NCBI GenBank assembly: GCA_038363925.1
Contig: JAQQWL010000011.1
Location: 8,556,001-8,620,000 of the forward strand
Direction: 5' to 3'
Length of the DNA stretch: 64,000 bases
Origin: Apiospora phragmitis
Lineage: Eukaryota > Ascomycota > Sordariomycetes > Amphisphaeriales > Apiosporaceae
Part shown: piece by piece, positions 49,050 to 50,699 of the stretch
How the letters are laid out: each line of letters opens with the position of its first letter
Numbering within the stretch: position 1 is the first letter of the stretch
The notes under the pieces: generated by a model
Seen by the model: the letters and a program-made list of their open reading frames with translations, nothing else
Told to the model about the DNA's origin: nothing
Database searches by the model: none
Position numbers and translations under genes: made by a program

Positions 49050-50096
49050 ATGGTTTCATCCTCCTCCAACCAAGCTACCACCCGCCACGAGGGCTCCGAA
49101 GAGCAACTGGTCTGGCACCCCGGCATCTGGCAGAGCCCAATTAACCCTCCTGCCCTGGACACTGTCACCGTCGTCAGAAGCGAGGCCCAGCACTACCAAG
49201 ATCGCCAAGGTCGTAGCAATTTGACCTACCAGACAGCCAGAGACAACTGGTTTTACCCGCGTTCTGAGATGGGGAACGCCGTCCACCAGCGCCCCGAGGC
49301 AACTACTGTGGTTGGCCAACACCCCGAGGTTGTCAGCTCCATCGGCCAGCGATATCAACCCATTGACACAGTTGACCGTCACCATGGATCCTTGGATGCG
49401 ACCAACCGTCTTCCGGATGCCAATTTGCGAACTGCGTACCCGCCTGCCAGAATCACAGGCCGACGCAACGGATCGCTCCCATACGATCCGAACTTCGAGT
49501 TCTCCGACAACTACCGAGGCTCGCGCAAGTCCCGAGCAAACTACTCGGCAAATGTTGAAGACACACAGAACTGCAGTGTGTTTATTCGCGGACTGCCCCC
49601 GACCTGCCGGCCATTCACGCTTCTGCAACACATCCGAGGTTGCGGAACCAAGATCAACGCGCTTCACATCAACCAGCCAGACAGGGATAACCCTCACCAC
49701 TGTGCGGCAAAACTTGTGTTCTTCCAGCGATGCGGTGTGGACTGGCTGTTCGCTCAGATTCGATCGGGACACTTCGTCATCCCTGGTGATAACGGCGTTG
49801 CTTACACACCCAACGCCGTATACAACAAGATTCGCTCGGCACCTATGCAGCCTGACGACCGCCGCTCTCGGGTCGTCATCGTTGGAGGTCCCGACTCTAT
49901 CGTATCCGTCGGAAGCATGGACGCCTTCTTCAGTTCGCACTTCTATTATGAAGCGGACACGGCCTTTGTCACACTCGAGCAGCCGGGCTGGCGAGTTATT
50001 GAATTCCACTTCTCGTCAATGCGTTGCCAGAGCGAGAACGCGGTTCAGGCTCTCGAGCGTCTGACGATCCAGGGACCAGAATCTTTCTCACTCTAG
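49050..50096 (+). CDS. RRM-like RNA-binding-domain protein with conserved sequence after its stop codon
   Basis: Intronless, 348 aa to the first stop. The start is the first ATG (49050) after a CAAC-rich leader. The N-terminal 170 residues are low-complexity, rich in His, Gln and Arg. The central part resembles an RNA-recognition motif: CSVFIRGLPPTCRPFTLLQHI matches an RNP2 strand and first helix, and AAKLVFF the RNP1 strand. A second block (SRVVIVGGPDSIVSVGSMDAF, then WRVIEFHFSSMRCQSENAVQA) looks like another half-domain. RNA binding is inferred. The TAG at 50094-50096 is followed in frame by 19 open codons (50097-50153) and TAA at 50154-50156. The same arrangement, with related residues, occurs in the decayed paralogue 540 nt downstream. 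The protein may therefore be made in a longer 368-residue form. A 317-codon antisense frame is a shadow. Confidence 0.75.
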   Translation: MVSSSSNQATTRHEGSEEQLVWHPGIWQSPINPPALDTVTVVRSEAQHYQDRQGRSNLTYQTARDNWFYPRSEMGNAVHQRPEATTVVGQHPEVVSSIGQRYQPIDTVDRHHGSLDATNRLPDANLRTAYPPARITGRRNGSLPYDPNFEFSDNYRGSRKSRANYSANVEDTQNCSVFIRGLPPTCRPFTLLQHIRGCGTKINALHINQPDRDNPHHCAAKLVFFQRCGVDWLFAQIRSGHFVIPGDNGVAYTPNAVYNKIRSAPMQPDDRRSRVVIVGGPDSIVSVGSMDAFFSSHFYYEADTAFVTLEQPGWRVIEFHFSSMRCQSENAVQALERLTIQGPESFSL

Positions 50097-50156
50097 GAGA
50101 ATGAGCAGGGCTGGAACCAGATCCGATACCAGTACGGCCGCGACCCTTGCGAGTAA
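50097..50156 (+). other. Conserved 19-codon post-stop extension of the RRM-like gene
   Basis: In frame after TAG 50094-50096 the sequence reads ENEQGWNQIRYQYGRDPCE and then TAA. The downstream paralogue reads EGTEDWHQLQFDYGHDPCQ after its own TAG, then stops. The two are the same length with no gaps. Nine of 19 residues are identical (E, W, Q, Y, G, D, P, C and stop-proximal context) and most differences are conservative (I/L, Y/F, R/H, E/Q). This matches the roughly 55-60 percent identity upstream of the stop. Confidence 0.7.
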
Positions 50157-50394
50157 GGTCGGGACGGGGATAATGGCATGACAAACGAAGGATATGATGA
50201 ATTAAGGGATTGGAGCTTCTGATAGAATGGGCGCAACATGCTCGCTCTGCAACCCTTGAAATGCATTATAAAACAATATACAACCCTCACCCAAAAAAAC
50301 CACGCCTTTATTTCATATTGTTGACCAATAAGTGTCCGTAGACGCCGTTTTCTCTTTTCCCCATCTTGTCGAAAGCCTTAATACATTCTTTCGA

Positions 50395-50699
50395 CACCAA
50401 CAACCGTCGTTCCAGCGTCATTATCGTCGCAGCCCTCATCAATAGTCTCCGTCGAAAGTCTTGACAACTTCTTTCGCCAGCACTTCTTCTTTGAGGCTGA
50501 CGATGCCTTTGTTACCAGCGAGCGTCTGGACTGGCGTGTCGTAGAGTTCCATTTCTCTTCGACTCGATGCCAGAGCGAAAATGGCATGCAGGAATTGCAA
50601 CGACTGATGGCTAGTGGACCAGGTGCATTTGTGCCTTAGGAGGGTACAGAGGACTGGCACCAGCTCCAGTTTGACTACGGCCACGACCCGTGCCAGTAG
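50395..50699 (+). pseudogene. Decayed tandem paralogue of the RRM-like gene (C-terminal remnant)
   Basis: Only the last ~85 codons remain. Upstream, NNRRSSVIIVAAL matches DDRRSRVVIVGGP of the intact gene. A small indel near 50435-50445 then shifts the frame, and from about 50446 it reads SIVSVESLDNFF, EADDAFVTSERLDWRVVEFHFSS, TRCQSENGMQELQRL to TAG at 50637-50639. A 19-codon extension follows (50640-50696), then TAG at 50697-50699. There is no start codon or RRM half, so it is a truncated copy or the end of a gene whose 5' part was lost. Divergence from the intact copy is large, so the duplication is not recent. Confidence 0.8.

Follow-up and report, generated by a model that had tools for sequence, protein, structure and literature searches.

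The window, that is, the entire 64,000-nucleotide stretch of Apiospora phragmitis DNA that we analyzed, is located on contig C11 of the genome searched in this work (52.67 Mb, 19 contigs). It contains a gene that encodes a tandem-RRM protein (gene A) and, downstream, a paralogous fragment (fragment B), with the following features (coordinates are those of the window):

49050..50093, + strand: gene A, a single open frame of 348 aa for a tandem-RRM protein (assigned from the frame, AlphaFold2 with Foldseek, and homologues)
49575..49823, + strand: RRM1 of gene A, residues 176–258 (strands and helices of the model)
49872..50072, + strand: RRM2 of gene A as far as the second helix, residues 275–341 (model)
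50085..50107, + strand: predicted RNA hairpin of A with UAG at the tip, 8 of 10 pairs
50094..50096, + strand: in-frame TAG, candidate UAG-to-UGG editing site
50097..50153, + strand: 19-codon continuation, the last strand of RRM2 (residues 359–362) and the D-P-C end
50154..50156, + strand: TAA, second stop of gene A
50382..50636, + strand: fragment B, a paralogous RRM2 half, frame-shifted at its start
50628..50650, + strand: predicted RNA hairpin of B with UAG at the tip, 10 of 10 pairs
50637..50639, + strand: in-frame TAG of B, aligned with the gene A TAG
50640..50696, + strand: 19-codon continuation of B
50697..50699, + strand: TAG, second stop of B

The frame of gene A starts at ATG 49050, and its first stop is TAG 50094–50096. 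For the product that includes the tail encoded after the TAG, AlphaFold2 (29 aligned sequences) predicts two β-α-β-β-α-β folds; the fourth strand of RRM2 is supplied by the continuation, in a block with a pLDDT of 72–77 as compared with mostly 88–95 in the cores. The Foldseek matches are tandem-RRM proteins (e.g., HuD, PABP, and NONO/SFPQ; best E-value 1.9e-6), with TM-scores that are low because much of the chain is disordered. Pfam assigns no family to gene A, with no RRM_1 match above the cut-off; in the family described below, P0041 passes for RRM_1 (30.0 bits) and P0030 is under the cut-off (18.9 vs 20.7). The gene A protein is classed as RRM by its predicted fold, not by Pfam. When the 348-aa form is modeled without the tail (AlphaFold2), the strand is missing and the rest of the fold is equally confident; the models thus do not show the short form to be unstable.

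Fragment B with its continuation and second stop spans 50382–50699. It aligns with the second half of gene A only and has a 2-nt gap near 50432; an earlier sequence-only reading of this DNA was correct in describing it as decayed. Acceptor-like CAG sites are found at the start of B (50415–50445), and the one at 50432 would bring the RRM2 of B in frame; via this CAG, A could use B as an alternative last exon, and no consensus donor for such an exon is found at 49850–49930 in A. An intron-containing gene, recognized as a cytochrome P450 by eye only, is located 3′ of B (51537 onwards).

The similarity of A and B extends to the second stop

The sequence-only reading had placed the TAGs of A and B at the same aligned position (50094–50096 and 50637–50639), with both frames running on for 19 codons to TAA 50154–50156 and TAG 50697–50699; we reproduced these coordinates. 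As it also stated, the continuation is about as similar as the protein upstream, that is, 8 of 19 residues are identical as compared with 9 of 20 just before the TAG and 36 of 61 over 61 upstream codons. At the DNA level, in an ungapped register, the identities are 62/90 and 59/99 upstream, 39/57 in the continuation, and 16/60, 16/60, and 12/60 past the second stop; overall, A and B are 68% identical as far as the second stop and 20–27% past it. The similarity continues past the TAG and ceases at the second stop. When the 18 nucleotide differences between the continuations were randomly repositioned 5000 times, 24 of the arrangements equaled the observed amino acid similarity; the 18 differences are distributed 7, 6, and 5 over the codon positions (NG86 dN 0.38 and dS 0.60, a weak measure over 19 codons). 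Sites that resemble 5′ splice sites overlap both second stops (GTAAGG at 50153 with the TAA of gene A; GTAGGG at 50696 with the last TAG of B).

The proposal of the sequence-only reading that the TAG is recoded, by editing or by readthrough, is supported by conservation that reaches the second stop and ends there; as judged from these sequences, recoding is well supported. That the tail is as conserved as the sequence upstream, and only to the second stop, argues against a different explanation, namely that the TAG is the true end of the protein, or a product of decay, and the conserved tail a relic; in favor of a relic, B is decayed, as are several of the family copies on contig C15 (L007, L003, and L004; vide infra).

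The continuation encodes the ancestral C-terminus

Three protein searches (the third restricted to the best 7998 candidates) identified 52 family proteins (P0004–P0055), of which 13 models form a single clade with gene A (support 100/100). Among the matches listed, 31 of the 39 models outside this clade have a D-P-C (30) or D-P-L (1) end, which is missing in P0036, P0037, P0040, P0044, P0048, P0049, P0050, and P0055; among the same matches, none of the 13 gene A-clade models has it. Nine of these 13 end exactly 21 residues past an R-x-Q motif; P0017 ends at 20, P0012 at 25, and P0016 at 28 residues, and P0013 continues (the script found no anchor in P0006 and P0011, so their ends were read by hand). 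Ancestrally, the protein ended with the sequence that these 19 codons encode, the last strand of RRM2 with the D-P-C signature, and the TAG is therefore premature relative to the family; the stop appears to be fixed in gene A's Apiospora clade. Thus, the "extension" of the sequence-only reading is conserved coding sequence, as it claimed, but it is not an add-on, because most of the other models just counted have it as their normal end; similarly, the pair of paralogues on which its case was built is confirmed, but the basis for the case is the whole gene family rather than two copies alone.

A conserved tail, together with a stop at the same place in most orthologue models, would also be expected from translational readthrough, in which a near-cognate tRNA decodes the UAG and a short and a long isoform are produced from unchanged RNA; the evidence from other members of the family (next section) bears on this explanation.

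The stop site in gene A is located in a linker, and relatives outside the clade lack about 14 residues there. This difference is compatible with splicing, that is, with the TAG as the 3′ end of an intron, or inside an intron, that is removed in some transcripts; the sequences CTCTAG and CCTTAG are acceptor-like, and CTGAC 30 nt upstream in A is branch-point-like. However, the orthologues conserve the protein sequence that precedes the TAG, and no pair of a GT[AG]NG donor and a YAG acceptor that would remove the TAG was found in A or B (consensus donors only, within 330 nt upstream, and acceptors within 120 nt downstream; length 40–400); donors further upstream (49702 and 49735) would cost most of both RRMs. 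We regard splicing as highly improbable.

The model that continues, P0013 (A. arundinis PG987_002174), has the same frame as P0015 as far as SFAP, where P0015 stops; one extra base just before the site, either real or an assembly error, places the tail out of frame in the model. When shifted by one base, P0013 allows T-N-G (TAG, TGG, TCG, or TTG) at the stop position, followed by W, [KR], an aromatic-compatible residue, G, D-P-C-compatible residues, and [KR], with a possible stop at the position of the gene A TAA. Shuffled P0013 tails match the continuation of B equally well in 13 of 2000 cases and that of A in 115 of 2000. The tail DNA survives in A. arundinis but is out of frame in P0013; this counts against a strictly kept device in that species, and the frameshift at the site is a point in favor of a relic. 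Two other family proteins, the orthologues P0007 (A. hydei) and P0010 (A. aurea), are publicly named 'Enoyl reductase LovC'; the sequences are those of the RRM family, and the name is likely wrong.

Other family copies have TAG where relatives have Trp

Using five protein queries, family copies besides A and B were located in the genome on C15 (three, in tandem), C8 (two), C10 (two), C17, and C5. All three C15 copies (L003, L004, and L007) have a TAG at one site inside RRM1 (AxK[VI]xL-TAG-D). At this site, the neighboring clade, which joins the C15 clade at support 93/94, has Trp in six of six sequences; in other relatives, the residue is F, W, Y, or H. The C8 copy L008 has a TAG where all five of its clade mates (P0018, P0024, P0028, P0031, and P0033) have Trp. 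Wherever the DNA was seen, the Trp of the relatives is genomic TGG. Trp is found among relatives at these two sites; the gene A site falls in a linker confined to its clade.

The three C15 copies (C15:669000–671800) are partly rearranged, and published annotation merges or shortens them: L007 is truncated at both ends and holds one more TAG and a TAA, L004 has a rearranged end with an inserted duplicate of its own end, and L003 has a frameshift near its end, before a glycine-arginine repeat. L005 (1866–2397; C8:2576394) is another member of the family and has Trp (TGG) at the C15 site; a one-base frameshift next to a G run separates its RRMs, and its D-P-C end is in the other frame. In the search tables, only TGA and TAA are found in the decayed copies on C17 and at 261 kb on C10. 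A weak match is located at C11:1414423.

The C15 clade includes 19 annotated models among the matches listed (nine in the tree, ten placed by similarity) from nine named species and one further source; P0036 and P0040 are models of A. phragmitis's own copies. None of the 19 reads across the C15 site: five end just before it (P0036, P0037, P0040, P0048, and P0049), two start past it (P0047 and P0051), P0050 ends earlier, and 11 skip it (read by hand). Most retain the downstream RRM2 and the D-P-C end. The TAG as the stop of the C15 clade was seen in the A. phragmitis genome only, and the gene A orthologues are known as protein models; in the two main clades together (13 + 19), none of the 32 models reads across its own clade's site in frame.

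These observations bear on both remaining alternatives. TGG to TAG is a favored change under RIP, and one index classes L003 as RIP-like (0.90) whereas the other places L007 at the borderline (0.89), as a relic would allow. RIP decay as the origin of the TAGs was nevertheless rejected: A, B, L004, and L008 are not RIP-like, and L003 and L007 are borderline, on one index each. In nine named species, moreover, the C15-clade models are interrupted at a single site, and most retain the downstream RRM2 and the D-P-C end, so we consider a relic quite improbable. With respect to readthrough, the Trp of the relatives at two other family sites is the exact product of UAG-to-UGG editing, and Trp is seldom the outcome of UAG readthrough; in addition, the C15 stop is inside RRM1, so steady low readthrough would yield little whole protein. 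UAG-GAG is not known as a high-readthrough context, unlike UGA-CUA. A stem near a stop, as predicted here (next section), can also promote readthrough; on balance, we judge readthrough to be unlikely.

Five of the six UAGs share a predicted hairpin tip

The UAGs of A and B are each predicted at the tip of a hairpin. If the loop is read as having seven bases, A 50095 is at position 3, as is A34 in a tRNA anticodon arm. The tip sequence UAGGA is common to five of the six TAGs (A, B, L003, L004, and L007), all of which have U at −1 (given by the TAG) and purines at +1 and +3; L008 (UAGUU) does not have the purine at +3, and its hairpin is ordinary.

As background we used all 1309 TAG triplets on both strands of the window. 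Out of five stem pairs, B, L003, and L007 have 5, A and L004 have 4, and L008 has 3; in the background, 5 are found in 7, at least 4 in 77, and at least 3 in 375 of 1309. With 30-nt flanks, the hairpin energy is reached by 56 (A), 13 (B), 14 (L003), 158 (L004), 3 (L007), and 494 (L008) of 1308 background triplets; with 15-nt flanks, the numbers in the same order are 197, 30, 49, 159, 43, and 484 of 1309. When ranked against TAGGA occurrences alone, A is at 17/93 and L004 at 12/93. The candidate edited A is in the predicted loop at all four flank lengths for A and B, with a modest rank for A; for L004, it is outside the loop of the best fold at two of the four.

The arms of the A and B hairpins differ at 12 of 20 bases and still form 8/10 and 10/10 pairs, with four pairs changed on both sides; of 20,000 random placements, 187 equaled the number of pairs and 396 the number of double changes. 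When the register is slid, no more than 7/10 pairs form, and L004 and L007 have 7/10 both in register and slid by two bases. We also performed synonymous shuffles in which the protein was fixed (5, 7, and 10 codons; n = 2000 each). For A, 837, 834, and 211 shuffles fold as well, and for B, 529, 465, and 419; for L003, 28, 4, and 3 are as stable, and for L007, 372, 140, and 32. As proof of selection on the hairpin, the shuffle holds for L003 and partly for L007 and fails for A, B, L004, and L008; because synonymous shuffles match the hairpins of A and B, selection on these two hairpins beyond that on the protein they encode is not demonstrated. The A/B pair offers a means of asking whether the candidate editing hairpin is itself under selection.

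UAG-to-UGG editing as the probable explanation for the premature stops

By analogy with other fungi, we consider A-to-I editing of UAG to UGG (premature-stop correction) the best explanation for gene A and its family, with a probability of about three in four. The sequence-only reading had suggested editing to UGG, and this suggestion is favored because two other clades have TAG where relatives have Trp and because five of the six TAGs have one hairpin tip in common (U at −1, purines at +1 and +3). The absence, over the range searched, of a consensus intron that would take out the TAG is a third reason. In the conserved sense sequence past its UAG, its flanking bases, and its predicted loop, gene A fits the features of editing.

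The gene A mRNA would need to be recoded at UAG 50094–50096 for production of the whole 368-aa protein; the unedited mRNA is predicted to give the 348-aa product without the last strand of RRM2. The UAG lies in the loop of a predicted anticodon-arm-like hairpin; its A is preceded by U and followed by G, and the base at +3 is A. From Fusarium and Neurospora we infer that A 50095 would most likely be converted to inosine by the tRNA deaminase Tad2-Tad3 with the Sordariomycete cofactor Ame1, probably mainly in sexual tissue; the codon would then be read as UGG (Trp), and translation would proceed 19 codons further to the TAA. Editing, its stage, its enzyme, and a deficiency of the short form are all proposed. 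From their sequences, two further clades seem to rely on this device as well, at different positions.

DUF726, the domain of Ame1, has seven matches on four contigs, none of which is singled out as Ame1. For a PUK1-type control, a kinase search gave 139 matches; in the seven regions with internal TAGs that were read, no PUK1 was recognized, and the TAGTAG found in two of them is not in the kinase frame in either. A far more speculative scenario, which we think very unlikely, is that the fixed UAGs, whose place in the RRMs varies from clade to clade, keep the RRM family off in vegetative cells until sexual-stage editing turns it on. Some of the products might then, like the two-RRM editing cofactor FIP5, themselves act in editing or sexual-stage RNA metabolism, a feed-forward loop in which editing would generate RNA-binding proteins that assist it.

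The editing process is already known; what would be new is an Apiospora case with several sites in one family. If confirmed, premature-stop-correction editing reaches Apiospora, and one gene family has stops at three places in the RRMs in its different clades, two of these in an anticodon-arm-like RNA loop; also, the annotation would be mended for the 32 models of the two main clades.

Comparison with known systems

In the literature search, which is thin on subscription journals, no report of RNA editing in Apiospora was found; in titles and abstracts on fungal A-to-I editing (stop codons and hairpins), with subscription journals sparsely covered, no such RRM family was found.

According to published work, A-to-I editing in Sordariomycetes is catalyzed by Tad2-Tad3 with Ame1 in sexual tissue, with preferences for U at −1, A or G at +1 and +3, and hairpin loops; PUK1 and another 70 genes in F. 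graminearum need UAG-to-UGG correction (PMC11156358; PMC4817773; PMC9600606; PMC11087585). The sequence and loop at the gene A site match the preferences reported for F. graminearum (PMC11156358; PMC9600606; PMC4817773). FIP5 of F. graminearum, which is reported to facilitate sexual-stage editing, likewise has two RRMs (PMC11156358); no Fusarium name is found among the named matches of the three protein searches (the third restricted to the best 7998 candidates).

The F. graminearum PSC genes (PUK1, AMD1, FgAMA1, FgRID, and others) resemble the genes discussed here in having an in-frame UAG, U at position −1, a purine at both +1 and +3, a hairpin loop (predicted here), sense sequence past the stop, and gene models broken at the stop (PMC11156358; PMC4817773). 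They differ in that Apiospora belongs to another order of Sordariomycetes and its candidate editing sites are at three positions in an RRM family.

Fusarium CHE1 has an editing site that was demonstrated by RNA-seq, is conserved among related species, and is located in a predicted hairpin loop; it shares three annotation errors with the C15 clade, namely models that terminate at the stop, begin past it, or contain a false intron. CHE1 is, however, a zinc-finger gene that is edited in hyphae (PMC11169179). Finally, stop-loss editing in F. graminearum, which gives a C-terminal extension, also involves a UAG at the annotated end and an in-frame continuation to a second stop; in contrast, the continuation of gene A is the domain's ancestral end, and its TAG is premature as compared with the family.
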